From contig JAAYFF010000068.1 in NCBI GenBank assembly GCA_012728375.1, forward strand, positions 1 to 40,618: a stretch of DNA of 40,618 nt, written 5' to 3'. Both the position numbers and the translations under genes were made by a program. Origin of the DNA: Bacillota bacterium (GTDB lineage: Bacteria > Bacillota > Dethiobacteria > DTU022 > UBA8154). A model generated the notes under the pieces. The model was not told where the DNA came from. It did no database searches and saw nothing but the letters and a program-made list of their open reading frames with translations. Shown here in pieces: positions 11,495 through 39,334 of the stretch. Positions within the stretch are counted from its first letter, which is position 1, and each line of letters starts with the position of its first letter.

Positions 11495-13456
11495 ATGAAA
11501 TTATATTCTAAATTATATTCTAAAAGTTGTCTTCTAACTCTGGCTTTGATCTTGGTTTTGGGGGCGTGTCTACCTGTCGCACGGGCTGCAGAAGGGATAA
11601 GCATTTCTGTGGACGGCTTAGTTGTGGAAACGGATGTGCCGCCATTTATTGACAATAATGGCCGGACGATGGTCCCGGTACGCTTTGTTTCCGAGGCCCT
11701 CGGCTGCGGGGTAATCTGGAACGCGGAAAATCAGCGGATTAAAATATCCCGGACCGGGATATGGGTGGAGCTTTTTATCGGTCAGAAGACCGCTTATGTT
11801 AACGGGACGGCAGTGGAAATGGATACTACGGCTGTTCTCCGGAAGGGGCGTACCATGGTTCCCTTGCGCTTCCTGGCGGAAACATTCGGACTTGAGGTCG
11901 ACTGGAACGAAGCCCGGCGGACGGTAGCCATCAAGTCGTCGGCGCCTCCTGAAGAATCCTCTCCGGAGGAGCCGCCTCCGGAAGGACCCTCCCCGGAGGA
12001 GGACCCAAACCCGCGGGTGGGCATTGTTAGCGGCAATTCAGTAAATATCCGTTCCGGCCCGGGGACGGACTACGACCGCTTAACCCAGGTCAACGCGGGC
12101 ACCCGCCTGACAGTATTGGCGGAAAAAGGCGGGTGGTTGCAGGTGGAGATTCCCGGCGGAGGCAAAGGCTGGATTTTGGGAGATTATGTTGATTTCCAGG
12201 ATCCCGCGTCGCCAGGGAATGTTAATCTGGGGGGTAATTATACCATGCCTTCCGGTGCCGCCTCTTTTGCCCTGGTCATGAAAGATTCCGTCAATGTCCG
12301 CACTTCCCCCAGTCAAAGCTCTTCTGTTATCGCCCAGGTTTCTTCGGGGCAGCAGCTGGAAGTTACGGGAAAGCAGAACAACTGGCTGGCCGTGCGGCTT
12401 CCCGACGGCCGGAGCGGCTGGATTGCCGGTTGGCTGGCAGCTGTGGGATATGATACTCAGAAAAAAGAAAATCCGGCGCCCGGAGGCAGGCCCGCGGAGC
12501 TGATCAGCCGCTGGAGCCCGGGAGGGCAAAACGCTGCTTCCGACCTGCCTGTGCTTACCGACGTGGAGGTGGAGAAGACCGGCGACGGGATTCTTTTAAA
12601 AGTGAGCGCGGCTTCCTACTTGGCGTTTCCTTCTTCGTTCCGTCTAAACAATCCCTCCCGCCTGGTGTTTGATTTTAATGCCAACCTAGGGGAAGACTCA
12701 GCAGCCCCCACGCTGCAAGCCAATTGGGGACCCGTTACTTCGTTTCGGCTGGGGCAGTTTGACGAGAAAACCGTCAGAATCGTAGCTGACCTGCGGGATG
12801 CAGCGTCCTATGCCCTGGACCGGAGCTCTGACGGTCGGACGATCACCATCCAGATCCGTTCCGTTGACTCGTCCGGGAAGCTTATCGTGATTGATCCGGG
12901 GCATGGCGCGCTGCAAACATGGGGCGGCTCTGATCCGGGCGCTATCGGCCCCTCCGGACTGCGGGAGCGGGATGTTGTCCGGAGCATATCCCTGCAGCTA
13001 GGCAATATCCTTCTTAACGAAGGTTTTACAGTAATCTATACCCGGGAGGGCGAAACGGGGCTTTCGCTGGAAGACAGGGCATGGGTTGCCGGCATTTCCG
13101 GAGCGGAGCTGCTGGTCAGCATTCACGCCAATGCTTCCACAGACCGCTCCATGTCGGGAACCATGACCTTTTACCATGCCCCTTGGGGATCTGATCGGGA
13201 GGATCAGATCAGCCAAAGAAAAAAACTGGCCAATTATATCCAGTCTGAGCTGCTGAACCGCCTGCAGCGGGAGAATAAGGGTGTCCGGGAGGCAAATTTC
13301 GCTGTATTGCGCAACTGCCCTGTTCCGGCAGTGCTGGTGGAGGTTGCTTTCATCTCCAACCCGGAAGAGGAAAAACTCCTGGCTGACCAGGTCTTTCAGA
13401 GGCGGGCTGCCGAGGCTATTGCCCTGGGGATTAAAAGATACCTTACCGCGCGCTGA
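11495..13456 (+). CDS. Secreted multidomain N-acetylmuramoyl-L-alanine amidase (stalk + 2 SH3b + AMIN + Amidase_3)
   Basis: 653 residues from ATG 11495 (AGAAGGAGA upstream). Order: signal peptide (~1-31, ends ARA); copper-amine-oxidase-N-type stalk repeats with two 'GRTMVP(V/L)RF' signatures (~32-150); Pro/Glu linker; two bacterial SH3 domains (~173-233, 255-320; both with VN(I/V)R); AMIN domain (~355-455); zinc amidase (~460-650). Zinc/catalytic residues are intact: H470 in DPGHG, E491 in LRERD, H544 in SIHAN, E616 in VEVAF. It should cleave the muramoyl-alanine bond in the cell wall, with SH3b and AMIN parts targeting it to peptidoglycan. In spore formers such enzymes serve daughter-cell separation, cortex formation or mother-cell lysis; which one applies here is not visible. 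Confidence 0.93.
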   Translation: MKLYSKLYSKSCLLTLALILVLGACLPVARAAEGISISVDGLVVETDVPPFIDNNGRTMVPVRFVSEALGCGVIWNAENQRIKISRTGIWVELFIGQKTAYVNGTAVEMDTTAVLRKGRTMVPLRFLAETFGLEVDWNEARRTVAIKSSAPPEESSPEEPPPEGPSPEEDPNPRVGIVSGNSVNIRSGPGTDYDRLTQVNAGTRLTVLAEKGGWLQVEIPGGGKGWILGDYVDFQDPASPGNVNLGGNYTMPSGAASFALVMKDSVNVRTSPSQSSSVIAQVSSGQQLEVTGKQNNWLAVRLPDGRSGWIAGWLAAVGYDTQKKENPAPGGRPAELISRWSPGGQNAASDLPVLTDVEVEKTGDGILLKVSAASYLAFPSSFRLNNPSRLVFDFNANLGEDSAAPTLQANWGPVTSFRLGQFDEKTVRIVADLRDAASYALDRSSDGRTITIQIRSVDSSGKLIVIDPGHGALQTWGGSDPGAIGPSGLRERDVVRSISLQLGNILLNEGFTVIYTREGETGLSLEDRAWVAGISGAELLVSIHANASTDRSMSGTMTFYHAPWGSDREDQISQRKKLANYIQSELLNRLQRENKGVREANFAVLRNCPVPAVLVEVAFISNPEEEKLLADQVFQRRAAEAIALGIKRYLTAR

Positions 13457-26134: not shown

Positions 26135-27196
26135 ATGCATTTTTTTACACCGGCCGCGGCTTTTTTTCTGGCCCTTGCCCTAACACCGTTGATGCGGCGC
26201 CTTGCTTTTCGGTATGGCGTCCTCGATTACCCCGACCAGCGCAAGATCCATGGACAGGCCATGCCTTTGCTGGGGGGTGTCGCCGTTTATCTGGCTTTCT
26301 GGCTTGTCGCGGGGCTTGCCCTCTTTTACCTGCAGGGAAACGGGCGTTTCTGGGGCCTTTTTTTGGGCAGCACGCTCATTCTGGCCTTGGGCCTGTACGA
26401 CGATATCCGGGGGCTTTCCTATCGGGCAAAGTTTGCCGGACAGTTCGCTGCAGCCCTCATCTTGCTGGCTTTTAATATTAAAATTGAATTTATTACCTTC
26501 CCTTTTCAAAGCATGGTTTTTTTGGGAATATTTGTTGTTCCCCTGACCCTGATCTGGGTTGTGGGCGTTACCAATGCCGTCAATCTAATTGACGGAGTGG
26601 ACGGGCTCGCCGCGGGCGTTTCAGCTATCGCCGCCATAGTTATGGTTGCCTACACCTGGGGTGAGTTTCCCCTGCTCTCTATCCTTTGCTTGATTCTGGC
26701 CGGCGCTGCCCTGGGGTTTCTGCCCCTTAATTTTCCACCGGCGCGCATTTTCCTGGGCGATACGGGGAGCCTTTTTCTGGGCTTTATGCTGGCAGGATTT
26801 TCCATTATGGGCGCTACCAAGCAGATTACCCTTACCACGCTGTTTATCCCCATGCTGATCCTCGGCCTGCCCATTACCGACACCTTTTATGTTATGTGGC
26901 GCCGCCTCAAGAGCGGACGTCCCATTTTCCAGGCTGACCGGGGCCATATCCATCACAAGCTTCTGGGGCTGGGGCTTACTCCCCGGCAGACGACAATCGC
27001 CCTCTACCTCATCAGCCTATATTTCGGCGGAGCGGCTATCTTTTTTCACCAGTTCACGAGGCCGGCGGTTTTATGTTTTATCCCGGTAACCTTTTTCCTT
27101 TTTCTGCTGGGGCTTAAGCATGTGGATGCCCTTACCGTTTTTCAGCGGAATGCAGAGGGGTTCTCCAACCGGTCCCGGCAGCAAAGAAAAGGATGA
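26135..27196 (+). CDS. Undecaprenyl-phosphate GlcNAc-1-phosphate transferase (WecA/TagO/MraY family)
   Basis: 353 residues, about ten membrane spans. ATG 26135. Family residues: KIHGQAMPLLGG, LYDDIRGLSY (Asp pair), NAVNLIDGVDGLAAG, FLGDTGSLFLGF, and the WecA/TagO-specific loop DRGHIHHKLLGLGL, which separates this branch from MraY. It loads a sugar-1-phosphate, usually GlcNAc-1-P, onto undecaprenyl phosphate at the inner face of the membrane, starting a teichoic acid, teichuronic acid or other wall polymer. Eighteen bases upstream of the UDP-GlcNAc 2-epimerase; the two would feed the same polymer. Confidence 0.93.
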   Translation: MHFFTPAAAFFLALALTPLMRRLAFRYGVLDYPDQRKIHGQAMPLLGGVAVYLAFWLVAGLALFYLQGNGRFWGLFLGSTLILALGLYDDIRGLSYRAKFAGQFAAALILLAFNIKIEFITFPFQSMVFLGIFVVPLTLIWVVGVTNAVNLIDGVDGLAAGVSAIAAIVMVAYTWGEFPLLSILCLILAGAALGFLPLNFPPARIFLGDTGSLFLGFMLAGFSIMGATKQITLTTLFIPMLILGLPITDTFYVMWRRLKSGRPIFQADRGHIHHKLLGLGLTPRQTTIALYLISLYFGGAAIFFHQFTRPAVLCFIPVTFFLFLLGLKHVDALTVFQRNAEGFSNRSRQQRKG

Positions 27197-27214: not shown

Positions 27215-28390
27215 TTGCAGCTTATGACTTCAATAAAAGTACTGAGCATTGTCGGTACAAGGCCGGAGGCCGTAAAAATGGCCCCGCTGGTCCGACTTTT
27301 GCAGGAAACCGGGGAAATTGAGTCCGTTCTATGCCTGACAGCACAGCACCGGGAGATGCTCGACCAGGTGCTTTCTCTTTTTCAGCTGGAACCCCATTAT
27401 GACCTGGATATTATGAAGGAGGGCCAGAGCCTGACCCATATTACGGTGCGGGCGTTGGAAGGCCTGGAGAAGGTTCTGCAGGCGGAAAAGCCGGATTTCG
27501 TCCTGGTGCAGGGGGATACCACCACTACTGTTGCCGGGTCCCTGGCCGCGTTTTATCAAAAAATTCCTGTGGGCCATGTGGAGGCGGGATTGCGCACGGG
27601 AGAGCGGTATGCGCCCTTTCCCGAGGAGATCAACAGGCGCCTGAACAGCGTTATGGCGCAGCTTCACTTTGCTCCCACCAGCCTGGCAAGGGAAAACCTC
27701 CTGCGGGAGGGGATTGATCCGGGAACCATTTTTCTTACCGGAAACACCGTTATCGATGCCTTGCAGACCACTGTGCAGCCTGCTTTCAGCTTTGCCGATC
27801 CCATACTGCAAAAGCTGGACTTTTCCCGTTACCGGATCCTGCTGGTGGAAGCCCACAGGCGTGAAAACCTGGGAGCGCCCATGGAATCCATTGCTCTGGC
27901 TCTGCGGGACTTGCTGGAGGCTTTTCCCGATACCTTTCTTGTCTTTCCGGTGCACAAAAATCCGGAGGTGCGCCGGGTTGTGTTCCATGTTTTGCAGGAT
28001 CACCCGCGGGTGCTCTTACTGGAACCCCTGGACACTTTCTCCTTCCATAATTTAATGGCCCGTTCTTACCTTATCCTGACAGATTCGGGGGGGATTCAGG
28101 AGGAAGCTCCTTCCCTGGGCAGGCCCGTTCTCGTTCTCAGGCGCGTCACGGAGCGTCCCGAAGCCCTGGAGGCGGGAACTGCTCTGCTGGCAGGCACCGG
28201 GAGGCAGGAGATCGTTTCCATGGCCTCACGCCTCTTGAGGGAGAAAGCAGCCTACGAAGCCATGGCCCGCGCCGCCAATCCCTACGGCGACGGCCGGGCT
28301 TCCCGGCGCATTTGCGAGGCAATTCTTTACTATTTCGGCTTGCGTCCGGCCCCGCCGGAACCCTTTGAGCCGCCTGTCAGCCGGAACTAA
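27215..28390 (+). CDS. wecB: UDP-N-acetylglucosamine 2-epimerase (non-hydrolysing)
   Basis: 391 residues from TTG 27215 (AGGAGGA about 5 bases upstream; ATG 27224 is the alternative). GT-B fold with all family blocks: GTRPEAVKMAPL, QHREMLDQVL, VQGDTTTTVAGSLAAFY, HVEAGLRTGERYAPFPEEINRR, EAHRRENLG, TDSGGIQEEAPSLGRPVLVLR. It makes UDP-ManNAc from UDP-GlcNAc in the cytoplasm (also named mnaA in Gram-positives). ManNAc is the second sugar of many wall-polymer linkage units, so it fits the transferase upstream. It heads into the DUF5693 cassette. Confidence 0.95.
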   Translation: MQLMTSIKVLSIVGTRPEAVKMAPLVRLLQETGEIESVLCLTAQHREMLDQVLSLFQLEPHYDLDIMKEGQSLTHITVRALEGLEKVLQAEKPDFVLVQGDTTTTVAGSLAAFYQKIPVGHVEAGLRTGERYAPFPEEINRRLNSVMAQLHFAPTSLARENLLREGIDPGTIFLTGNTVIDALQTTVQPAFSFADPILQKLDFSRYRILLVEAHRRENLGAPMESIALALRDLLEAFPDTFLVFPVHKNPEVRRVVFHVLQDHPRVLLLEPLDTFSFHNLMARSYLILTDSGGIQEEAPSLGRPVLVLRRVTERPEALEAGTALLAGTGRQEIVSMASRLLREKAAYEAMARAANPYGDGRASRRICEAILYYFGLRPAPPEPFEPPVSRN

Positions 28391-28456: not shown

Positions 28457-30490
28457 TTGAAAAAACAAACGATGGTTATATTTTTAAGTGCCATTATTTT
28501 ACTCGGCCTTGTCGTGGCGCTGGGCGAGGCCTGGAACCGCGTGCAAGTGGAGGCGGGCAACCTGCACACGGAGATTCTCGTGGAGTACGGAGAGTTTGTG
28601 GAGCAGGTTAACCGCCACAGCATGGGGCGCTTTAGCGTTGAAGAGGCCTTGGCAGCCTTCAAGGCAAGCGGAATCGGAGGGGTGCTCTTTAAAGAGCAGT
28701 CCCTGGATGATCTGGCCCGGGGGGGACAGCTGCAGGTCTTTAGGGGTGCACAGCTTCTGGCCGCCTCCAAAAGCGGCCGTTTGAACGATTACCTGCCGGG
28801 GTTTGCCGCTCTGGACTCTTTTAATCCCTATCACCTTTACGTGGAGATTCCGGAGCCGGCCCTCTGGGAACGGGTTTCCTTCCACCTAAGGAGCAAGGTC
28901 CCGGGGACAATTATCCATCAAGAACCGAAAGGGCCTGAAGGCGCGTCAGGGAACGCTGCCCCTTCCTGTGGGGGGATCCTTTCCGTCCCGCTGGAGGAGG
29001 AAATGCTTAGCGAGGTAGGGGTCGGCTTTCCCAGGGCAGAGATGGAAAGCGTCCTTGCCATGGGCATGAATATCTATTTGCAAATATACGGCTGGCCCGG
29101 GGACGAGCAAAGCATTCCGGAGGTTTTCGGGGATTTTCAAGAGCTTCCGGGAGTGAGGGGAATTCTTTTTTTGGGCGCCAATCTGCCCGGTTTCCCGGGG
29201 CACACGGCTCTTGCCGCCTCTGAGGTTGACCGTCTCGGCGTTCCGGTGGTAACCATCGATCTTTTCGAGCTGCAGCGCAGGCCCCTTCTTTCTCTGGTGC
29301 GCTCCTCGGCCAAAAAAGAGGTAATCCGGCTTCACGCCATCCCCCAGGAAGAACGGGACCTCCTTTCCAGGGAACGGGCGCTGTCCCGCTACCATTTGGC
29401 TGTAACTGAGCGCAACATTCGCCTTTTGCTGATCCGCTACGGGGGGAAGAATCTTTATGGCCTGCCGTGGCTGGAGGAAAATACCGGGTTTGTTGCCGAT
29501 TTACGGGAAGGACTGGCCGCGGCCGGACATCCTGTGGGAACGGTTCTCCCTTATAAGAGCAGCGATTTTTCCTTTTCCAGGGCTAAAATATTTTTCATCA
29601 GCGCCGGTATTTTGGCCGCCGGAGTTTTGCTTCTCTTCAGGGCAGGGATGCAGGTAGCAGGCCTTTTGCTGGGGGCTGCCGGACTGGTGCTGGTGGGGTT
29701 TTTACTGGTAGCGGGGGGCAAGATTATGGGCATGGAGGGCATTGACCTGGCCCGCAAGGGGATGGCCCTGGCCGCCGGTATTATTTTCCCCCTGTTGGGG
29801 TTGTCCCTTTACAAATGCCGCTTCGGGGGAAAATCGCTGCTAAAGGCCCTTTATAGCCTGCTGGCCATTTCCGCTGTTTCCCTGGCAGGCGCGTTGCTTT
29901 CAGCCGGCCTGCTGGCGGAGATGACCTACATGGTCAAGCTGGACCAGGTCCAGGGTATTAGACTGGCGCTCCTTTTACCCCTGCCCCTGGCCTGGCTGTT
30001 GTTGATTGCCGGGGATGAAACATCCCTTCGAGGTATGGCCCGTAAATTTAGGGAGCTTTGGGATCGCCCCCTGTTTGCAGGTACAGCGGTTCTTGTCCTC
30101 CTGCTCCTTGCGGCAGCTGCCGTGGTCCTGATCCGCTCGGGGAACGAATCCCCTCTTGTCACGGAACTGGAACTGCGCGCCCGCTCTTTTTTGGGAGAGC
30201 TTCTGACGGTGCGCCCCCGGACGAAGGAATTTCTTTTCGGTCATCCTTTTTTGCTGGCCGCGCTTTACTGGGGATTAGGTAGCAGGCTCGGCATGTTGGC
30301 CGCGATCATGGGGATGGTCGGCCAGGTCTCTCTGGTCAACACTTTTTACCATCTGCACACCCCTCTGACCATATCCCTTTTGCGGACTGGCGGCGGCCTT
30401 GCCCTGGGAATTATCCTGGGCGTTGTTTTGGCTCTGGCTCCCAAAATATTGTGCAGGATTTGGGAGCGCCTGCCCGCGCGCGGGGAGTGA
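28457..30490 (+). CDS. DUF5693 family polytopic membrane protein, paralog A
   Basis: 677 residues from TTG 28457; the ribosome site is weak, and ATG 28472 is an alternative. N-terminal anchor (~5-24), an extracytoplasmic domain of ~340 residues, then 8-9 membrane spans from ~375 to the end. The outer domain alternates helices and short strands (FSVEEALAAFKASGIGGVLF, VPVVTIDLFEL, NIRLLLIRY), reminiscent of a TIM barrel, but no catalytic residues are recognised. The C-terminus has VRPRTKEFLFGHPFL and SLVNTFYHLHTPL, shared with paralog B at 33633. DUF5693 genes tend to lie beside wall-polysaccharide and CsaB-type genes in Clostridia; function unknown. A transport or polymer-modifying role is inference. 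Confidence 0.8.
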   Translation: MKKQTMVIFLSAIILLGLVVALGEAWNRVQVEAGNLHTEILVEYGEFVEQVNRHSMGRFSVEEALAAFKASGIGGVLFKEQSLDDLARGGQLQVFRGAQLLAASKSGRLNDYLPGFAALDSFNPYHLYVEIPEPALWERVSFHLRSKVPGTIIHQEPKGPEGASGNAAPSCGGILSVPLEEEMLSEVGVGFPRAEMESVLAMGMNIYLQIYGWPGDEQSIPEVFGDFQELPGVRGILFLGANLPGFPGHTALAASEVDRLGVPVVTIDLFELQRRPLLSLVRSSAKKEVIRLHAIPQEERDLLSRERALSRYHLAVTERNIRLLLIRYGGKNLYGLPWLEENTGFVADLREGLAAAGHPVGTVLPYKSSDFSFSRAKIFFISAGILAAGVLLLFRAGMQVAGLLLGAAGLVLVGFLLVAGGKIMGMEGIDLARKGMALAAGIIFPLLGLSLYKCRFGGKSLLKALYSLLAISAVSLAGALLSAGLLAEMTYMVKLDQVQGIRLALLLPLPLAWLLLIAGDETSLRGMARKFRELWDRPLFAGTAVLVLLLLAAAAVVLIRSGNESPLVTELELRARSFLGELLTVRPRTKEFLFGHPFLLAALYWGLGSRLGMLAAIMGMVGQVSLVNTFYHLHTPLTISLLRTGGGLALGIILGVVLALAPKILCRIWERLPARGE

Positions 30491-30534
30491 GAAGAAGATG
30501 TTTTTACTATGGAAAAGAGTGAGAGAAATTTACC

Positions 30535-32151
30535 ATGGATATAAAAACATGTGTTAAACGGAAAAAGAAGATGTTTGGTAAAATGGGTATTTTTCGCCTT
30601 TCAGCATTGGTTCTTAGCGCCGCCGTTGTCTTTGGGACCGTTTTTTTCGCCCCTTTTCCCATGAATGCATCTTTCGGCGGCAACCTCCTGGGGTGCAGGG
30701 CCCTGGCTTCCGGCGGGGAAGTGTTTGCAGCCGGGCAGGAGGGGTCCGGCGTTGAGCGTCATAATCTTGCTCCAGGAGTGCTTTTTACCCTCTACCGGGG
30801 TTATAAAAATCTTGCCGGCGAGGATCTGCGGGTTTATGTTCTGGAGGTGGATCTGAACCGGCAGGATGTGGAGATCCTTCCCGTTGTGGCCGGTGACAGC
30901 CTGAGCGGAGCGGAGACGACGGCAGCTGCGGCAGCCCGCATGGGTGCAATTGCCGGCGTCAACGGCGGCTTTTATTACACGGAGGGGGGTAAGACCCTCC
31001 CTGTGGGGAACCTCATTATTGCCGGTGAGCCCTGGAGTATTTTGGACTACACGACAGCCTCGGCTGCTCTGTCCCGCTTTCCCGAAAAGGGAGGCAAGCT
31101 GGAGATGCTCACGGGGTATTTTGTCCCCCGGACAGAAGTGGCCTTCTCCGGAAAGAGCCTTCCCGTAACCACGATCAACAGCAGCTCCACAATCCCCGGA
31201 GTGCACCTTTTTACTCCCCGCTGGGGGGAGGCTGTGGAGGCTGCCGGAGGTTCCCTCCAGGTCGCGCTGAGCCCTGCCGGAGACAGCAGCTATACCGTGA
31301 CAGCAGCAGGGACCGGCAGAATGCTTATCCCTCCCCGCGGGCTGGTGCTGCGTTTTATCGGAAATCCCTGGAGCGCGGAAGGAGAGCTCCTCCGTCAAGG
31401 AGAGGCGGTTTCTTTAACTTTTACATATGACCAGGGTTACTGGGGTGAGATTGAACATTTAATTACCGCAGGCCCTCTTCTCGTTGAGGATGGAGAACCG
31501 GTATTCCAGGCCATACAGGAAGGTTTTACGGGCAGCGTCCTTCTCCCCAATCCCCGGACAGCTATGGGGGTTACAGCTGATAACAGAGCTTTGCTGGTTG
31601 TGGCCGAGCGCTCCGAAAAGGGCAGCCGGGTCGGACTGACATTGGAAGAGATGTCGCTGCTGATGACCGGCCTGGGCGCGGTCCGGGCCATAGGCCTGGA
31701 CGGCGGGGGTTCGAGCACATTTTATGCTGGTGGCCGGATTTGGAACAATGCCCGCAGTTCTCCCAGGGCAGTGGCCAACAGCCTCCTCGTTCTGACGGGG
31801 TTGAAGCTCTACCTGAACAACATCCGCATTTTTCCCGATGTTCCTCCCTATCTTGCCGAAGGAGGCAGAACCATGGTTCCCATCCGGGTGATCGTGGAGC
31901 ATCTCGGCGCGCAGGTGGAATGGAAAAGTGAAACGCAAACTGTTTTCATCAGCCGGGAAAATCGCATTGTCAAACTGAATATCGGCAGCAAAGAGGCAGA
32001 TGTGGACGGCGTCCCGGTTCTGCTGGAGGCACCCCCGGTCATCAAGTCCGGCCGCACCATGGTACCCTTGCGCTTTGTTGCGGAAAATTTGCAGTGCCGC
32101 GTGCACTGGGACGATCTTCGCCGCGCCGTGTACATTGCCGCTGACCGGTAA
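30535..32151 (+). CDS. Secreted phosphodiester glycosidase (NAGPA domain) with copper-amine-oxidase-N stalk
   Basis: 538 residues from ATG 30535. A signal/anchor segment (~20-45) is followed by a NAGPA-type domain (~105-420: GAIAGVNGGFYYTEGG, LLPNPRTAMGVTADNRALLVV, LDGGGSSTFYAGG near 388-397, SPRAVANSLLV). Members hydrolyse sugar phosphodiesters (the human uncovering enzyme; bacterial homologues act on wall or exopolymer). Residues ~430-538 are a stalk domain of two repeats, each with GRTMVP(I/L)R. Sits between two DUF5693 proteins and next to wall-linkage-unit enzymes, so a sugar-phosphate wall polymer is the likely substrate (inference). Confidence 0.88.
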   Translation: MDIKTCVKRKKKMFGKMGIFRLSALVLSAAVVFGTVFFAPFPMNASFGGNLLGCRALASGGEVFAAGQEGSGVERHNLAPGVLFTLYRGYKNLAGEDLRVYVLEVDLNRQDVEILPVVAGDSLSGAETTAAAAARMGAIAGVNGGFYYTEGGKTLPVGNLIIAGEPWSILDYTTASAALSRFPEKGGKLEMLTGYFVPRTEVAFSGKSLPVTTINSSSTIPGVHLFTPRWGEAVEAAGGSLQVALSPAGDSSYTVTAAGTGRMLIPPRGLVLRFIGNPWSAEGELLRQGEAVSLTFTYDQGYWGEIEHLITAGPLLVEDGEPVFQAIQEGFTGSVLLPNPRTAMGVTADNRALLVVAERSEKGSRVGLTLEEMSLLMTGLGAVRAIGLDGGGSSTFYAGGRIWNNARSSPRAVANSLLVLTGLKLYLNNIRIFPDVPPYLAEGGRTMVPIRVIVEHLGAQVEWKSETQTVFISRENRIVKLNIGSKEADVDGVPVLLEAPPVIKSGRTMVPLRFVAENLQCRVHWDDLRRAVYIAADR

Positions 32152-32268
32152 AAAAGAGAGCCGGCTGGAATATGCCTCTACAATGGTTGCTGATTTTAAG
32201 CGAACACTTTGTAAATGGAGTTTATGCAGTAGAGAATATATAAAAAGGGTTATCTTAAGGAGAAAGTT

Positions 32269-33582
32269 ATGGCCTGTCAAGAAAAAAAACAAATCTTTTG
32301 CTGTTTTTCTTTGTTCTCCACGATTTTAGTCCTTTTTCTAATTATGGTCCTGGTGCCGCCTTCCGGAGCCTGCGCTTCCGAAGTTGCGGCACGGGTGGAC
32401 TGGCAATTTCGAGATAATGTCTACGGTGCGCACCCCACAGACCTGGTCCTGCTGGATAACGGAAATTTGCTGATGGTTCTCAACGGCTCCTCCCATTCCC
32501 GCATCCTGGAGGTTTCCAGGGACGGCAGAATTGTCTGGAGCTATGAGGGGATCGCGGCCAACAGCGCGCGCCGGCTGCCAAACGGCAATACCCTGGTGGC
32601 TGATTCCGGCGCCCCGGGTTATCCCTTCTTTCCCCGCGTAGCCGAGATCGCTCCGGGAGGGGAGATCGTCTGGGAGAAGCGTTTTTCCTCCCGGTCCAGA
32701 GCGCCCCTGATGGCTGAACCCCTGGCGGACGGAACTATTCTGGTGACCGTCCGGGACCGGGTCTTTCAGCTGCTTAAGGAGGGAGGAGAAGGCTTCTCCA
32801 TCTCCCGGGCGCAGCTCTTTTCCGGGCAGGGGAGGGATTTCTTCGGAAGCGACGCCCTGCAGCTCGTTTCAGCCCGGCAGCTGGACAGCGGCAATCTGCT
32901 CGTCATCGGGCAGCAGATCCGGGGCCAAGGAAGCGTTGTGGAAACCACAACTGCAGGCCAGGTTGTTGCCCGCTTTACCGGCCTGGAACAGCCGGTGGAC
33001 GCCCTGCGCCTCTCCGACGGAGGAACCCTGATCCTGGACCTGGGCAGCTGCCAAGTGCTGGACTATGCCCCCTCCGGCGAACTGCGCGCCATCAGGAGCT
33101 ACCGGCCTGTGATCAGCGAGCTTCCGGTGCTGAACCAGTGGAGAGGCTTTTTGCTTCCTTCCCGGCATGCCTTTATCTCCCTGATCTTTACCAATACTCA
33201 ATCCCTGGTGATGGAGATAAACGATCAGCTCCCCCGGGTATTTGTTGACGGCGTCGAGGTTCCCCTGGTGCGGGGCCCGTTTATGGCCAACAGCCGCCTG
33301 ATGGTTCCCCTGCAGGAAATATGCAAAGCAGCAGGAATAAATCTCACCTGGGGAGAAAAGGATAGAAGCTGGACAGCGCAGCGGGGGAATGTTTCGTTGA
33401 CATTATTTGAGAACAGACAGGAATATCTGCTTGGGGGCAAGAGCTGGACTTTCCCTGCCTTCCCCATCTTAAGCGGGAAAGAACTATATATCCCCATCGG
33501 CCTGCTTCAGGAGGCTTTCGGCATGAACGTGCGCTGGAACGCTGCCGCCAGAACCGCGGAGATAAGCACTACTGCTTACTAA
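32269..33582 (+). CDS. Secreted beta-propeller protein with copper-amine-oxidase-N-like stalk
   Basis: 437 residues from ATG 32269 (AAGGAGA six bases upstream). A signal segment (~12-37, ends ACAS) is followed by ~270 residues of short repeats of the type 'P-x-D-hydrophobic-x-L-x-(D/N)-G-N-x-L', e.g. PTDLVLLDNGNLLMVL, ARRLPNGNTLVAD, AEPLADGTILVTV, ARQLDSGNLLVIG, ALRLSDGGTLILD, a propeller resembling PQQ-like or arylsulfotransferase sets. Residues ~325-437 are a divergent stalk domain (SRLMVPLQEICKAAGI, KELYIPIGLLQEAFGMNVRWN). No catalytic residues recognised; likely a surface binding or scaffold protein. It is the middle gene of the DUF5693 cassette. Confidence 0.75.
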   Translation: MACQEKKQIFCCFSLFSTILVLFLIMVLVPPSGACASEVAARVDWQFRDNVYGAHPTDLVLLDNGNLLMVLNGSSHSRILEVSRDGRIVWSYEGIAANSARRLPNGNTLVADSGAPGYPFFPRVAEIAPGGEIVWEKRFSSRSRAPLMAEPLADGTILVTVRDRVFQLLKEGGEGFSISRAQLFSGQGRDFFGSDALQLVSARQLDSGNLLVIGQQIRGQGSVVETTTAGQVVARFTGLEQPVDALRLSDGGTLILDLGSCQVLDYAPSGELRAIRSYRPVISELPVLNQWRGFLLPSRHAFISLIFTNTQSLVMEINDQLPRVFVDGVEVPLVRGPFMANSRLMVPLQEICKAAGINLTWGEKDRSWTAQRGNVSLTLFENRQEYLLGGKSWTFPAFPILSGKELYIPIGLLQEAFGMNVRWNAAARTAEISTTAY

Positions 33583-33632
33583 AAAGAGGCTTTTTTTAGC
33601 AAATATTCCGGCTGGAGAGCGGAGGAAACGAG

Positions 33633-35804
33633 TTGTCCACTAAACATAAACATGAGATCCTGACGGGAGCTTTTCTCTGGCTTCTGGTACTCCTTGCCGT
33701 GGCCTCCGCGGCCTGGGCAGGCTTTCGCTTTCACGCAGACATACCGGCACAGGAGGAAAACGTTGAATTTACCGTCCGTTACAGCGACGTGGAAATCTTT
33801 GCTGCCCGCGCCGGAATGACTGTTGAGGAAACTTTGGCCTTCCTTAAGGAGCAGGGTGTATCCTCTGTGGGAGTTTTCGAATACACCCTCTGGAATCTGC
33901 GCCGGGAATCAGGATGTTACGTGCTCAGCAACCTGGAACTGGCAGGAGAGATGGCGTTTAATACCGAACTGGCCCGGTACAGGGACTTTATCCTTGACAG
34001 CGCAGAAGGGCTTCAGCTGGGGGATTATATCGTCCTTATGCCGGAGGGGGCCTGGGCTGAGCAGGTTTGGGAGCACCTGGAACAGCTCAAAGAGGTGGAA
34101 GATTCGGTCCGTTTCCGCCTGAAAAGGGCCTCCTGCGAAGGGATGGAACTTTTTGTAATCCAGGGAGCCGTCTATGATAACCTTCCTTATCTGGCTCTGG
34201 GAGCCAACCCTGCACAGTTAAAAAATGTTTCCCACGCGGGCTTGCTGGTGAACCCATATTTGAGCGCCAGGAGAATTGAAACTCCCGCTTCTGCCGAGCA
34301 GGCCCTGGCCACTTATGACCGCGCCTCTTTATCCGCGGTCGTCTTCGAGGGGGGGAGGGTCCCCGGTTTTCCCCGCTATACTGCGGAGACGGCTCAGGCC
34401 GTGAAAAAAAGAGGGCTTCCTGTGACGGTTTTCGAATATCACCAGTACCCCCAGGGGATGAAAGAGCTGGCCTTGATGCTGGATTACAATTTGGCGGTCA
34501 TGATTCCCGGGAAAACAGGTCTCCAGGAGGCCATGGAGGTCTGGAACGGAGTCCGGGAGCGCAAGGTTAGATTAATTGAGCTTCGGCTCCGCGACTTTGC
34601 TCCCCAGTTCCGGGGAGAAGAGCTAAAGGAGCGATTTGCCGGGCGGATGTCCTCTATTGTAGGATTGCTGCAGGAAAAAGGGTACAAATCCGGCAAGCTG
34701 CAGGCGCTTTCTGTCAGGCCTTTGCCCCCAGGTGTTTATCTGCTCATGGGAGCAGGCTTGCTGGCCTTTACTCTTCTTTTCCTGCGCACAATTATTCCTG
34801 TCAGGCCCCTTGTCCTCATCCTGCTTCTTGTCCCGGGTACTGCCTTTGTTTTTCTGCTTTTTCTCTGGAACCGGATCCTGACGGGGCAGGTGCTTTCCCT
34901 TTGGACCGCGCTGCTCTTCCCCTTATACGCGGTTCTGACGCTGTATTTTTCTCCTCCTCTCAGGGAAAAAGAGGAGCGGGGCTGTGAAAGAGGGCCCGGC
35001 AGGGGAGCCCGCGCTCCGGTTTTGCAGCTTTTTACCCTGCGCCCCGGGTTTTTTGTGCGGACCGGACTTATGCTCTGCGGCACTTTTCTCTTCTCTCTGG
35101 CCGGGGGGCTTTTGCTGCACGGTTTTTTAACCATGCCGCCATTTTACAGCGGCCTGGAATTTTTCCGCGGCGTCAAAATCATGTATGCGGCACCCCTGTG
35201 CCTGGCCGGGCTGGCTGCCCTGGCCTATTGGAGCGCAGGGGAGGTTGAAACTTGCAGGAGCGGTTTCCGGCTGCTCCCTGCAGGAGAGCTCGGGAAGACC
35301 TGTCTGGCTTTTATCCGCCGCATTCTGCGCCGGCCCCTGGTCCTCGGGGACCTGATCTTTTTGGGAATTCTGCTTCTGGTTGCCTACTTTTATCTTACCC
35401 GGACCGGTCATGTTACGGAGATTACTGCTGCGGAAAGCCAGGCCCGCGGTTTTCTGGAAACAGCCCTCGGTGTCCGGCCCCGCTTTAAAGAATTTCTCAT
35501 CGGTTATCCTCTGGCCTTTCTGGGATTTTATCTTCTGGAGAAACCTGGTAAAAATATTCGGCTCCTGGCTTGTCTCCTGCTGGCTGCCGGAATTCTGGCC
35601 CCCGTATCTGTACTCAATACCTTTGCCCACATCCAGGCCCCCATCGTCCTTTCTCTCTGGCGAAGCCTCCACGGGTTCTGGCTGGGAGGGCTTTGCGGCC
35701 TGCTGCTGCTTTTCGTGTGGACATTTGGCGGGCTTTTTGCTGCGGCCGTCAGGTCAGAAAAAGCCCCTAAAAAATGGAATAAAGAGGAAAAAGGGCGGGG
35801 ATAA
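33633..35804 (+). CDS. DUF5693 family polytopic membrane protein, paralog B
   Basis: 723 residues from TTG 33633, with GGAGGAAACGAG upstream. Same plan as paralog A: N-terminal anchor (~10-30), a large outer domain (~30-365; MTVEETLAFLKEQGVSSVGVFEYTL... style), then about 9 spans. Shared blocks: PGFPRYTAETAQAVKKRGLPVTVFEY (A has PGFPGHTALAASEVDRLGVP), VRPRFKEFLIGYPL and SVLNTFAHIQAPI. A charged cytoplasmic loop (REKEERGCERGPGRG) separates spans near residue 445. Identity to A looks modest, so the duplication is old. Function unknown; the retained pair suggests two complementary roles or a heteromer. Confidence 0.8.
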   Translation: MSTKHKHEILTGAFLWLLVLLAVASAAWAGFRFHADIPAQEENVEFTVRYSDVEIFAARAGMTVEETLAFLKEQGVSSVGVFEYTLWNLRRESGCYVLSNLELAGEMAFNTELARYRDFILDSAEGLQLGDYIVLMPEGAWAEQVWEHLEQLKEVEDSVRFRLKRASCEGMELFVIQGAVYDNLPYLALGANPAQLKNVSHAGLLVNPYLSARRIETPASAEQALATYDRASLSAVVFEGGRVPGFPRYTAETAQAVKKRGLPVTVFEYHQYPQGMKELALMLDYNLAVMIPGKTGLQEAMEVWNGVRERKVRLIELRLRDFAPQFRGEELKERFAGRMSSIVGLLQEKGYKSGKLQALSVRPLPPGVYLLMGAGLLAFTLLFLRTIIPVRPLVLILLLVPGTAFVFLLFLWNRILTGQVLSLWTALLFPLYAVLTLYFSPPLREKEERGCERGPGRGARAPVLQLFTLRPGFFVRTGLMLCGTFLFSLAGGLLLHGFLTMPPFYSGLEFFRGVKIMYAAPLCLAGLAALAYWSAGEVETCRSGFRLLPAGELGKTCLAFIRRILRRPLVLGDLIFLGILLLVAYFYLTRTGHVTEITAAESQARGFLETALGVRPRFKEFLIGYPLAFLGFYLLEKPGKNIRLLACLLLAAGILAPVSVLNTFAHIQAPIVLSLWRSLHGFWLGGLCGLLLLFVWTFGGLFAAAVRSEKAPKKWNKEEKGRG

Positions 35805-35895
35805 AACACTGCGGCCTCAGCCCCAGGGGCTTGGAATAGTTTGTTTTTGCTAAAGCGTAGGGGGAAAATTTTACTTGAACGTGCAGGAGGAAATC

Positions 35896-37488
35896 TTGAC
35901 CGAAAAAAAACGGGATAATATTTTTTTATTTAGATCAATGACCCTGGTTATGCTGGCCACATTGCTCAGCAGGCTGCTGGGCTTTTTTCGCGAGGTTTCT
36001 ATTGCTTATCGCTTCGGGACAACCATGGAAACGGATGCCTACCTTGTGGCCATTTTGTTGCCCACAATTCTTTTTTATGCCTTCAGCGACGCGCTTAGAA
36101 ATACCTTTATAACTGTTTTTGCTGCTTTTCGGAAAGATGAAAGCGCTCCGCGCTTTCTCAACACCCTTACCCTGTACATTTCTGCAGCCTTGCTGCTGTT
36201 CGTTTTGCTGGGGCTTTTGTTCGCGCCCCAGGTGGTCTTTCTCTTGGCTCCCGGCTTTAGAGGGGAGGCTTTCAACCTGACGGTCAAATTGACCCGAATT
36301 CTTTTGCCCGGTATTTTTTTTATGGGCCTGGCGGGAATTGCCACGGGCTTTTTGCACAGCCATCAGCGCTTCCTTATTCCCGCGCTCGTCAATGTCCCTC
36401 ACAACCTTATCGTCATCGGCAGCGCCCTGTTCTTGGGAGTAGGCTACGGAATTACCGGACTGGCAGCAGGAAGCCTGGTTGCCGTGGCGTCACAGTTTTT
36501 TATCCAGGTGCCTTCTCTTTGCCGGGTTCCTTTTCCCTTTAGCCCGGGGCTTTCTCCGGGGCATCCCGGCCTTAAAAAGATATCTGCCCTGCTTCCGGCA
36601 ATTCTTCTTTCCAGCGCGGTCCTGGAGCTCAAGCACCTTCTGGACCGGCTTTTTGCTTCCTTCCTACCCGCGGGCAACATCTCGTCCCTGAACTATGCCG
36701 AACGCATTTATGTGCTTCCCCAGGCCATCCTGGGCACGGGGATAATTATTGTCCTCTATCCCGTTCTGGTGGAGATGCTGAACGAGAAAGATCTGCAATC
36801 CTTTGTCCGCGAGGTAAGCCGCGGCATCTCTCTGCTGCTCTTCGCCCTCCTGCCGGTAACAGCCGGCCTGATGATGCTGCGCATCCCCCTGGTGGAGGTT
36901 TTTTTTGAGCGGGGAGCCTTTGACGCTTCGGCTACGGAGATGACGGCCCGCGCCCTTTTTTACTATACCCCCGGTTTGGTGGGCTTTGCCCTGCACTATT
37001 TTTGTAACCGCATCTTCTTTGCCCTACAGGAGGTCAAAGTGCTGGTCTGGGTTAATCTGGCCATGGTGGGGGCCAATGCTCTGTTTAATTTTCTGCTCAT
37101 GCCCGGCTTGGGGCACGGCGGCATTGCCCTCGGGACTTCCTTAGCTTTTACGCTGGGTTCTTTATGGCTCTTCTTCGTTTTTGCCCGGCGTCTTTCCCTT
37201 TCCTTTAGACGCCTACTGCTGGCCCCCTTGTTCCGCTCCGGGCTGGCAACCGCGTTCATGGTAGCGGGGCTCTATTTTTTCAGCTATTTCTGGACGGGCT
37301 TCCTGGGACGTCCTTTTACAGGGATGACTCTGCTGCTGACGGCCGTCTTGTGGGGGGCAGCTGTTTATTTCCTCTCCGCATACCTGCTGCGCCTCCCGGA
37401 GATGGCACTTCTGCAAGAGTTCCTGCGCGGTGTGGCCGGGAAGGGACCGTCTTCGGAGGGACGAAGCGGGGATCAGCCTCAAAGATAG
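35896..37488 (+). CDS. murJ: MurJ/MviN-family lipid-linked oligosaccharide flippase
   Basis: 530 residues from TTG 35896 (AGGAGGA four bases upstream); TTG 35875 is possible (+7 residues, GGGGGA nine bases upstream). About 14 spans of the MOP superfamily: SMTLVMLATLLSRLLGFFREVSI with the conserved Arg-rich first helix, GTTMETDAYLVA, LRNTFITVFAAF, LLPGIFFMGLAGIATGFLHSHQRF, SLNYAERIYVLPQAI, FFERGAFDASAT. It flips lipid II or another undecaprenyl-linked intermediate. It may serve peptidoglycan or the polymer of the neighbouring wecA/wecB-DUF5693 genes; it is cotranscribed with the downstream recombinases (9-base gap). Confidence 0.92.
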   Translation: MTEKKRDNIFLFRSMTLVMLATLLSRLLGFFREVSIAYRFGTTMETDAYLVAILLPTILFYAFSDALRNTFITVFAAFRKDESAPRFLNTLTLYISAALLLFVLLGLLFAPQVVFLLAPGFRGEAFNLTVKLTRILLPGIFFMGLAGIATGFLHSHQRFLIPALVNVPHNLIVIGSALFLGVGYGITGLAAGSLVAVASQFFIQVPSLCRVPFPFSPGLSPGHPGLKKISALLPAILLSSAVLELKHLLDRLFASFLPAGNISSLNYAERIYVLPQAILGTGIIIVLYPVLVEMLNEKDLQSFVREVSRGISLLLFALLPVTAGLMMLRIPLVEVFFERGAFDASATEMTARALFYYTPGLVGFALHYFCNRIFFALQEVKVLVWVNLAMVGANALFNFLLMPGLGHGGIALGTSLAFTLGSLWLFFVFARRLSLSFRRLLLAPLFRSGLATAFMVAGLYFFSYFWTGFLGRPFTGMTLLLTAVLWGAAVYFLSAYLLRLPEMALLQEFLRGVAGKGPSSEGRSGDQPQR

Positions 37489-37497
37489 GTGATACGG

Positions 37498-38448
37498 GTG
37501 CTTTTAACAGAAGCCATTGACGAATTTTTGACATATCTGCTCGTTGAATTAAACCGCTCTCCATATACCTGCAGCGGTTATGAAAAGGATTTGCATGTCT
37601 TTACCGAATTCCTGCAAAAAAAAGGAGTGACCGGTTTAACAATAGAAGAACTTAATCCGGAGCTCCTCGGCGAGTACCTGCGCTACCTGACCAGGGAGAG
37701 GGAGAGTAAGGCCAATACCGTGCGAAGGCATGTCACTTCCCTGAAATCATTTTGCAGGTTTCTTGTTGATTGCGAATATCTGGACCATAATCCGGCGGCA
37801 AACCTTCCCCGCCCCCGCACACCGCAAAAGCTTCCGCGCCATCTCCAGCGGACAGAAGTGGACAGGCTTTTCGATGCCGTCCCAGAAGACGAATCACCGG
37901 CCAAACTTCGCGACAGAACGATGCTCTTTTTTTTGTATTATAGCGGCGTAAGGGTGGGTGAACTTGTCAACGTCCGCACAAAAGACATAGATTTTGACGG
38001 CGGTTTCATCAAGATTATCAAAGGCAAGGGAAACCGCTTCCGCAAAATACCTCTGCACGACCGGCTGAAAGGACAGCTTAAAAAATACCTTACCGGAGCT
38101 GCCGGACTGGTTGGCGAGTACCTTTTTTGCAACAGGGAGGGCAAACAGATCAGTACCGATTATGTGCATCATATTATCGGCGAATATGCCCTTAAAGCGG
38201 GATTAAAAAGCAAAGTAACGCCCCACATGCTGCGCCACTCCTTTGCCACGCATCTTTATAGGGAAAATGTTGACATTAAGACCCTGGGCAAGCTTTTGGG
38301 GCATGCAGAAATAAGAACTACAGCCGTATACACTCATGTGGAGTTAAAGCATCTGCGCGAAGCTGTGCATAAGCTGAACACTTCCGCGAAACTTGAAGCC
38401 CAATTATTCCCCCTGGAGGAAGACAATGCTCCTGCAGACAGTAATTGA
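37498..38448 (+). CDS. Tyrosine recombinase, XerC/XerD family, first of a tandem pair
   Basis: 316 residues from GTG 37498, placed five bases after AGGTGA; GTG 37489 would overlap that site. N-terminal SAM-like core-binding domain (FLTYLLVELNRSPYTCSGYEKDLHVFTEFL), then the catalytic domain with Arg in YYSGVRVGEL, Lys in KGKGNRFRKIPL, HxxR in HMLRHSFATHL, His in LGHAEIRTT and Tyr in VYTHV. All are intact. It exchanges DNA strands at a dif-like site or a mobile element. The 3' end overlaps the next recombinase by 23 bases, as in pairs working together. Confidence 0.92.
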   Translation: MLLTEAIDEFLTYLLVELNRSPYTCSGYEKDLHVFTEFLQKKGVTGLTIEELNPELLGEYLRYLTRERESKANTVRRHVTSLKSFCRFLVDCEYLDHNPAANLPRPRTPQKLPRHLQRTEVDRLFDAVPEDESPAKLRDRTMLFFLYYSGVRVGELVNVRTKDIDFDGGFIKIIKGKGNRFRKIPLHDRLKGQLKKYLTGAAGLVGEYLFCNREGKQISTDYVHHIIGEYALKAGLKSKVTPHMLRHSFATHLYRENVDIKTLGKLLGHAEIRTTAVYTHVELKHLREAVHKLNTSAKLEAQLFPLEEDNAPADSN

Positions 38449-39334
38449 ACGCTACCTTGAGTTCCTGGAATTTGAACAGCGCGGCAGCCAAAGCACGATT
38501 TCTTTGCGCTCTTACGAACTTCACCGCTTCAGAAAATATATGGAAGCCGAGCAGGGAATAAGCAACTTTAAGGAGATAAAGATCAACCATCTGAGGAGCT
38601 ATCTGGCATACCTGCGCCTGAACACCGGCTACCGGCCCATTTCACTGGAAGGCGTTATTTACAGCTTAAGGGCGCTGTACAAGTTTGCCGTCCTTAAGGG
38701 TATTGTGACGGATAACCCCGCCCAGCGCCTTAAAAAACCCCATGTGGAAAAAAAAGAAATCGAACATTTTACCTGGGAAGAGGTGGAATCCCTTTTCCTG
38801 GCTGTACCGCGGGGCGCTAATTATCTGCGCGATCTGTGCATCTTGCTGCTGCTTTATTACTGCGGTCTCAGGCTCAGCGAATTGAGCAAGCTTAGGGTGA
38901 ACGATTTCAGCGAAGATTTGACTGAGGTTTACGTGGAGATGAGCAAGGCCGATAAAGCCAGGCTGGTACCCCTCCATCCCTTTGTGCAGAGGGTGCTGCC
39001 CCTTTATCTCAAGGAAAGAGAAAGGGGCTCAATTTCACCCTATCTCTTTCCCGGAAGGGGGAAGGAGCCCCTCAGCAAAGCACGGATTTACGGGATTGTA
39101 AAGCGTTGCGGAGAACTGGCGGGCATTAAAAAACGGGTTTCTCCCCATACATTTCGTCATACTTTTGCCACGCACCTGCATCAAAAGGGTGTGGATATCA
39201 ACAGGCTGGCCGAGCTGCTGGGACATACCAATATTGAAAAGACGGCAATTTATACCCATACGGAGTACGGAGAGCTGACAGCCGCGGTGCTAAAACTAAA
39301 AGATGGAAGGGTTGTTTGGAGGATTGCAGACTAA
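38426..39334 (+). CDS. Tyrosine recombinase, XerC/XerD family, second of the pair
   Basis: 302 residues from ATG 38426, with GGAGGA five bases upstream inside the previous gene; the frame is open from TTG 38393 but that lacks a site. Core-binding domain (YLEFLEFEQRGSQSTISLRSYELHRF), catalytic Arg in YYCGLRLSEL, Lys in MSKADKARLVPL, HxxR in HTFRHTFATHL, His in LGHTNIEKT, Tyr in IYTHT. Intact and only moderately similar to the upstream recombinase. The pair could be the chromosomal XerC/XerD resolving dimers, or belong to an integrated element. Confidence 0.92.
   Translation: MLLQTVIERYLEFLEFEQRGSQSTISLRSYELHRFRKYMEAEQGISNFKEIKINHLRSYLAYLRLNTGYRPISLEGVIYSLRALYKFAVLKGIVTDNPAQRLKKPHVEKKEIEHFTWEEVESLFLAVPRGANYLRDLCILLLLYYCGLRLSELSKLRVNDFSEDLTEVYVEMSKADKARLVPLHPFVQRVLPLYLKERERGSISPYLFPGRGKEPLSKARIYGIVKRCGELAGIKKRVSPHTFRHTFATHLHQKGVDINRLAELLGHTNIEKTAIYTHTEYGELTAAVLKLKDGRVVWRIAD

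Follow-up and report, generated by a model that had tools for sequence, protein, structure and literature searches.

The window, which is the whole 40,618-nucleotide stretch of DNA analysed here, encodes two paralogous membrane proteins of the DUF5693 family, A and B, and the question that it raises is whether the C-terminal signature shared by the two marks an active site and, if so, for which reaction. The features on which the argument draws are the following.

26135..27196, + strand: TagO/WecA-type GlcNAc-1-phosphate transferase (Und-P priming); PF00953, best NCBIfam match ECA_wecA, under its cut-off
27215..28390, + strand: UDP-GlcNAc 2-epimerase (UDP-ManNAc supply); PF02350, 396 bits
28457..30490, + strand: DUF5693 protein A, 677 aa, TTG start according to the ORF finder; PF18949, 409.2 bits, residues 38-665 on profile positions 3-608 of 609
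28559..29554, + strand: predicted extracytoplasmic TIM-barrel ectodomain of A, residues 35-366; AlphaFold2 model and VIA-align
30122..30436, + strand: conserved C-terminal segment of A, residues 556-660 (predicted TM7 outer end, interfacial helix 570-582 and TM8-TM10); conservation in 53 sequences
30209-30247, + strand: A motif 1, VRPRTKEFLFGHP, residues 585-597
30329-30367, + strand: A motif 2, SLVNTFYHLHTPL, residues 625-637
33633..35804, + strand: DUF5693 protein B, 723 aa; PF18949, 362.3 bits, residues 43-698 on profile positions 2-607 of 609
35472-35510, + strand: B motif 1, VRPRFKEFLIGYP, residues 614-626
35607-35645, + strand: B motif 2, SVLNTFAHIQAPI, residues 659-671
35875..37488, + strand: MurJ-family lipid flippase; PF03023, 274 bits, TIGR01695 over its cut-off

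Both proteins match PF18949 over its full length and above its gathering score of 29, and a profile search of the whole source genome finds them to be its only two DUF5693 genes. Between them lie a NAGPA (PF09992) phosphodiester-glycosidase protein and a second protein (30535-32151 and 32269-33582), both terminating in a Cu_amine_oxidN1 domain (PF07833); since homologues follow DUF5693-CsaB in locus L145 and A in locus L033, these two products may share the DUF5693 pathway. Elsewhere in the window, an N-acetylmuramoyl-L-alanine amidase (11495-13453) carries Cu_amine_oxidN1, SH3 and AMIN domains. The MurJ gene is followed by two neighbouring ORFs alike in sequence (37489-39334, one homology cluster), with a tyrosine recombinase at 38393-39331 according to Pfam, and a similar pair is found downstream of DUF5693 in L035.

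The conserved C-terminal segment

A preliminary description of the window held that A and B end in a common signature, with the two halves about 35 residues apart, and this signature (VRPRTKEFLFGHP...SLVNTFYHLHTPL in A; VRPRFKEFLIGYP...SVLNTFAHIQAPI in B) proves to be real and stronger than first claimed, A having 27 residues, and B 32, between the end of motif 1 and the start of motif 2, which is close to that figure. Two back-translated motif patterns match at least 592 stretches in the genome collection, and 585 among the matches listed encode a relative. Because the 80 sequences fetched in this way are biased for motif conservation, they were dropped as proof of it in favour of 53 sequences picked with the Pfam HMM rather than with the motif, which avoids circularity: A, B, the 30 best matches in a sample of 299 genomes of the phylum, and 21 proteins from 20 more loci chosen among the lower-scoring matches listed. 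This set includes the A and B genes of one genome of the same genus besides those of the window, and one row (L128) lacks its N-terminal part.

Nineteen columns of the 53-sequence set reach at least 95% identity, the start Met aside, and 15 of them fall within residues 556-660 of A (hypergeometric 7e-10); the 26 motif columns hold eight of the 19 (9e-8). Invariant throughout, in A numbering, are R560, R576, R586, P587, R588, K590, P597, H632 and R643, with T629 in 52 of the 53, E572 as 51 E and 2 D, and E591 as 51 E and 2 S, so that the conservation on which the first reading depended is confirmed for R586, P587, R588, K590, H632 and R643 in the HMM-selected set (53/53) as well as in the biased, pattern-fetched one (80/80). 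Twelve polar positions of the segment are kept in at least 49 of the 53. The idea that the polar residues of the motifs are active-site candidates is reasonable for the Arg, Lys and Glu residues and for H632, but not for N628 (N 40, E 9, D 4) and H596 (H 38, Y 13, D 1, F 1), whose variation rules them out as invariant catalytic residues. R560, E572, R576 and R643, which lie outside both motifs and were overlooked at first, are conserved like the motif residues, and on this pattern of conservation they may reasonably be considered better active-site candidates than Asn628 and His596. Searches for 'DUF5693' and 'PF18949' returned no open-access paper, subscription journals not being covered.

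The AlphaFold2 model of A, built on the 80-row alignment (pLDDT 93.1, pTM 0.91), consists of TM1 (helix 2-34), a TIM barrel at about residues 35-366 and nine further spans (375-395, 399-418, 428-451, 461-485, 508-517, which is short, 541-560, 589-605, 610-629 and 637-671). TM8 is preceded by an extra helix, 570-582, which carries the invariant R576 and is also predicted when the membrane core is modelled alone (pLDDT 90.2); its amphipathicity is mild in A, with a moment of 0.31 that ranks 66th of 298 segments, and the family mean is 0.45. Our own reading of the model is that the N terminus would be inside, the barrel outside and the C terminus inside. With that topology TM8 would carry motif 1 at its outer end, and motif 2 would cover the outer end of TM9 plus the loop to TM10. 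In the 80 sequences, basic residues make up 19% of the inner loops versus 11% of the outer ones, and 16% of the motif-bearing outer loop 560-589. The motifs had been described as lying inside the last membrane bundle; the model agrees as to TM8-TM10, but predicts a position at the outer membrane boundary rather than in the middle of the bundle, and it speaks to the orientation of the motif residues at the level of topology, as outer ends of helices. Conservation is stronger in the outer half than in the inner half of TM8 (3.39 vs 1.34 bits) and TM9 (2.74 vs 1.18 bits), and the same comparison over TM1-TM7 gives no significant difference (p 0.39).

The TIM-barrel fold of the modelled ectodomain is borne out by VIA-align, with 2dfa as the best match (Z 12.5, 182 residues, 3.7 A) and, below it at Z 10-11, other TIM barrels that are diverse and unrelated in function; the predicted fold says nothing of what the ectodomain does. 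Its conserved positions lie at strand ends: E268 (75/80), Q272 (73/80), H293 (64/80) and R319 (80/80, and 53/53 in the HMM set). Eight loci (L117, L118, L119, L122, L123, L124, L126 and L133) encode shorter DUF5693 proteins, in open frames of 543-616 aa, in which the profile match breaks past position 80-100 or so, as though a portion of the barrel were absent. Members with a broken ectodomain match still keep the membrane residue set.

The divergence of B from A is uneven, with 40 identical residues of 104 in segment 556-660 versus 61 of 305 in the ectodomain and 41 of 179 in TM2-TM7. R28 and E32 are absent from window B and from its orthologue in L034, and present in the other 78 of the 80 sequences (E32 also in 49 of the 53 of the HMM set); E32 was set aside as the essential acid on account of these B-type proteins. 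B has also lost Q272 and H293, and it retains R560, E572, R576, R586, R588, K590, E591, H632 and R643, so that the membrane-face set is what selection keeps as the rest drifts. Since the membrane site is kept in both copies and the changes in B fall on its ectodomain and the end of its TM1, A and B might use a different acceptor or chain end. The two genes are adjacent in L034 and have two genes between them in the window; they are also adjacent in L047, whose B frame spans just 516 aa and loses similarity toward its end, and the related L033 has A and no B within its flanks.

Gene neighbourhood and Wzy_C at csaB

CsaB, called by TIGR03609 with a representative over the cut-off, is found in 60 of the 80 pattern-found loci, always on the same strand as DUF5693, adjacent to it in 58 and downstream of it in 58 (upstream in 2). 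The gap between the two genes has a median of -7, and an overlap of -4 recurs. In 28 of the 36 loci chosen by HMM, too, the automatic gene call has DUF5693 immediately before a co-directional csaB, the exceptions being L116, L121, L124, L128, L130, L131, L143 and L153. Other recurring neighbours are WecA/TagO (33/80 and the window), MurJ (24/80 and the window), WecG/TagA (19/80) and LCP (19/80). Among the 20 loci without a neighbouring CsaB, 19 belong to genomes with a CsaB match elsewhere, 18 of these over the cut-off; in the source genome CsaB lies on a different contig from DUF5693, and there are 11 SLH repeats. In L138-L141 the order is DUF5693-CsaB-TagA-TagO followed by a protein of about 1,300 aa, which in L138 has an SLH domain. 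L116 and L121 come from CsaB-less genomes in which DUF5693 sits beside TagA, an arrangement suggestive of the ManNAc-GlcNAc lipid, rather than pyruvate itself, as the substrate.

Some of the CsaB frames of 612-742 aa are not plain CsaB: fusions were seen with a WecG/TagA domain (L155, L157, L128) and with a GT4-type glycosyltransferase (L154, L156), and in L124 the 732 aa seem to come from an open frame that extends into the gene from upstream. In 17 of the 80 loci DUF5693 adjoins a gene for a protein with an LmeA-like phospholipid-binding domain (PF11209; e.g. L107:8248-8958).

At the level of genomes, DUF5693 is matched in 180 of the 299 of the phylum sample, counting two matches under the cut-off (G159 and G204). 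By counts made by eye, CsaB is matched in 176 of the 180 positive versus 78 of the 119 negative genomes (Fisher 1e-14), and SLH in 174/180 versus 85/119 (Fisher 6e-10): SLH and CsaB can occur without DUF5693, and DUF5693 seldom occurs without them. Four of fourteen control genomes (Thermus composti, Deinobacterium chartae, Bacteroides ihuae and Thermotoga maritima) match DUF5693, three of them above its cut-off, and SLH is matched in three of these four carriers and in Synechococcus elongatus. The DUF5693 match without an SLH match in Bacteroides ihuae counts against a role in an SLH-binding polymer.

Where DUF5693 is missing, Wzy_C (PF04932) is frequently found near csaB. Pfam's own model on whole genomes, with distances read by eye from domain coordinates, places Wzy_C within 5 kb of csaB in 21 of 36 DUF5693-negative versus 5 of 80 positive genomes (Fisher 2e-9), many of the genomes being related and contig ends possibly hiding neighbours on either side. 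The negatives (12/20, 8/15 and 1/1) are all those whose csaB coordinates were listed; the positives combine 3/35 and 2/45, the CsaB-less G048 and G122 being set aside, the DUF5693 locus being used where csaB coordinates were not listed, and G297, whose csaB position is not known, being scored as no. Counted by taxonomic family, the figures are 9/18 versus 4/43 (p 0.001), and the anti-association is in part shared ancestry. A local Wzy HMM run on the fetched loci gives 11/20 negative versus 6/116 positive, with G204, the sub-threshold match, grouped here with the negatives. In three of these 20 negative loci (L161, L167 and L169) an unrelated protein of 10-12 spans lies directly upstream of csaB-tagA, in DUF5693's very slot, and Pfam identifies it as Wzy_C. 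Both states occur within one taxonomic family, f92: DUF5693 is absent from G201 and G298, whose Wzy_C gene precedes csaB by 1.5 kb, and G176 has the order Wzy_C, another gene, DUF5693, CsaB. Of the five positives with Wzy_C near csaB, L125 carries both genes in a row. No Wzy_C match was found anywhere in 11 of 82 positive genomes, some of them incomplete, versus 0 of 36 negatives; G057, of the window's genus, is one of the 11, and the source genome has two Wzy_C matches, away from both its DUF5693 and its csaB locus. MurJ and LCP are without such an exchange (MurJ in 24/80 positive vs 4/20 negative loci, LCP in 19/80 vs 8/20). The other O-antigen ligase family, PF13425, matched 0 of 8 genomes but also 0 of 14 controls and is uninformative.

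Candidate functions

In our view, DUF5693 has roughly one chance in two of being an unrecognised extracytoplasmic polymerase or ligase for the lipid-linked secondary cell-wall polymer (SCWP), similar to Wzy or WaaL without detectable sequence relationship. This reading draws on conservation, operon position, the association with CsaB and SLH and the anti-association with Wzy_C beside csaB, together with the predicted placement of the site at the outer face; from these we infer a substrate, a reaction and a role for each residue. TagO, TagA and CsaB build a pyruvylated ManNAc-GlcNAc unit linked to a lipid pyrophosphate, according to the available text of two papers (PMC6030368, PMC6801904). DUF5693 would take such undecaprenyl-pyrophosphate-linked units, usually 4,6-pyruvylated by CsaB and already flipped outward, and would either link them up into the polymer on which SLH-domain proteins are held or attach them to it by ligation. 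At the outer face of the membrane, the pyrophosphate(s) might be bound by R560, R576, R586, R588, K590 and R643; the acceptor hydroxyl might be activated by H632 or by an acidic side chain (E591 or E572), with the growing sugar chain held by the TIM-barrel ectodomain. Enzymes acting on Und-PP substrates, as described in the available part of one paper (PMC10449877), offer a precedent for such an arrangement: in enzymes such as RodA and WaaL the pyrophosphate is bound by outer-face arginines, one of them on a short interfacial helix, and Asp or His serves as the base; the known GT-C enzymes of this type have in common a loop base (His338 in WaaL) and an amphipathic helix on the periplasmic side that bears a conserved Arg. 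The corresponding parts in DUF5693 would be R576 on helix 570-582, R586, R588, K590 and R643, and H632, E591 or E572. We therefore rank a polymerase or ligase as most likely, followed by a flippase and an accessory factor, with a structural role last.

That DUF5693 is a flippase, or part of one, moving the lipid-linked SCWP unit outward seems unlikely, even though the operon logic with tagO-tagA-csaB fits equally well, ten spans are predicted, the Arg/Lys cluster could bind Und-PP head groups, and the step after CsaB in P. alvei has no assigned gene in the available text of a review (PMC6801904). DUF5693 is accompanied by a MurJ-family gene in 24 of the 80 loci as well as in the window, and such a gene is found in negative loci too, so that MurJ, unlike Wzy_C, is not displaced. 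The conservation of TM8-TM9, confined to the outer face, also argues against transport, as does the 330-residue TIM-barrel ectodomain, since an ectodomain of this kind is unusual in flippases. Neither A nor B matches the MurJ/MOP flippase profiles (PF03023, MatE), and the neighbour at 35875-37488 matches MurJ.

We give a similarly low probability to an accessory, trimming or modifying factor, whose barrel would bind or cleave the polymer (length control, hydrolysis or substituent transfer) and whose membrane site would only hold the lipid carrier. The ectodomain does have conserved strand-end positions of its own in E268, Q272, H293 and R319, and the glycosidase-type TIM barrel is the commonest of that sort; yet B dispenses with Q272 and H293 and some members miss part of the ectodomain, and in both cases the membrane set remains intact. 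Helix ends often carry Pro, Gly and Arg for structural reasons, and the Arg, Lys, Pro and His of the motif could in principle secure a lipid of the outer leaflet or a contact with another subunit without any chemistry, but twelve polar positions kept in at least 49 of 53 sequences, including an invariant His in an outer loop, exceed the needs of packing and make this the least probable explanation. Returning to the polymerase or ligase, a more specific proposal, which we advance tentatively and hold to be somewhat less probable than the general one, is that DUF5693 represents a new class of extracytoplasmic lipid-linked-glycan polymerase or ligase, with a TIM-barrel ectodomain and a ten-span core bearing an R-R-K-E/H site, which, across many Bacillota and in some other phyla, would make the pyruvylated SCWP used to anchor SLH proteins and would have been repeatedly swapped with Wzy_C, in either direction, in the csaB operon.

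Known systems and the SCWP pathway

The available text of a 2019 review describes SCWP biosynthesis after CsaB in Paenibacillus alvei as still elusive, states that neither in silico nor experimental data favour a Wzx/Wzy- or an ABC-transporter-dependent route, and notes two ORFs of unknown function in the gene cluster (PMC6801904). In the part of another paper that is available, the P. alvei locus has the order orf1-csaB-tagA-tagO, which matches the DUF5693-CsaB-TagA-TagO of L138-L141 (PMC6030368); from gene order alone we infer that orf1, one of the two ORFs without a function, is DUF5693. The P. alvei work of that paper combined MnaA, TagA and CsaB in vitro with a synthetic lipid-PP-GlcNAc. 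The exchange between DUF5693 and Wzy_C would then be an in silico argument for a polymerase or ligase. If this is true, a family matched in 180 of the 299 sampled genomes gains a function, specific residues and a place in a pathway for the attachment of S-layers and probably, in some diderms, of outer membranes. Related literature, in the portions available, touches on the subject from other sides: a paper on DrpA/DrpB mentions csaB merely as a tool (PMC6282519), one on the lipocone proposes VanZ proteins for similar missing transferases with no mention of DUF5693 there (PMC12419801), and one on MnaA has nothing there on the ORF upstream (PMC11464976).

A likeness to GT-C or ligase enzymes had also been suggested for the polar cluster. 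From fold and sequence it receives little help, since the GT-C match is weak and no Wzy_C sequence match was found, but the functional analogy to Wzy and WaaL is backed by gene context. For A and B, Pfam at E up to 0.01 gives DUF5693 only, without Wzy_C, and NCBIfam gives no family at the same E. With the 80 membrane domains and Pfam at E up to 1, no other family matches more than two of the 80; of 34 families matched, the 25 that were listed do not include Wzy_C, and the other nine match one member each. A sequence search of solved structures yields nothing usable (best E 0.15 with A, 0.95 with the 80-row profile). Foldseek with the full-length model returns 434 matches, dominated by the TIM barrel and none at E 0.001 or better, and with the membrane core a best E of 0.44. 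VIA-align, which re-aligns Foldseek's own matches and thereby excludes no family outside them, scores the core against PglB at Z 5.0-5.4 (ranks 2, 3 and 5), AftD at 4.9 (rank 6) and OST at 4.1 and 3.9, in the same range as a designed protein (5.9) and a GPCR (5.0), so that GPCRs and transporters tie with GT-C.

The resemblance of the modelled core to the GT-C fold is therefore suggestive but weak. DUF5693 shares with the GT-C transferases PglB and AftD the layout of TM1, a large outer loop and TM2, and the best PglB alignment (163 residues, 4.3 A, Z 5.4) is far under the informative level for helical bundles. In GT-C enzymes the first outer loop, which follows TM1, holds a catalytic acid, and E32, conserved where TM1 ends on the outer side, would be GT-C-like, but it is missing in the B-type paralogues. 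With SEDS/RodA and WaaL, as far as these Und-PP enzymes are covered by the available source, DUF5693 would share an outer-face interfacial helix with an invariant Arg and a possible loop base; unlike them, it has different motifs, only a mildly amphipathic helix in A and no Pfam match to the family. From the Wzy_C family of O-antigen ligases and polymerases (PF04932; WaaL, Wzy), DUF5693 is set apart by the lack of a sequence match and by its TIM-barrel ectodomain, which follows TM1 and precedes TM2. Both families have about ten or more spans and a presumed extracytoplasmic site of Arg and His, and in different genomes both occupy the same operon slot upstream of csaB-tagA.
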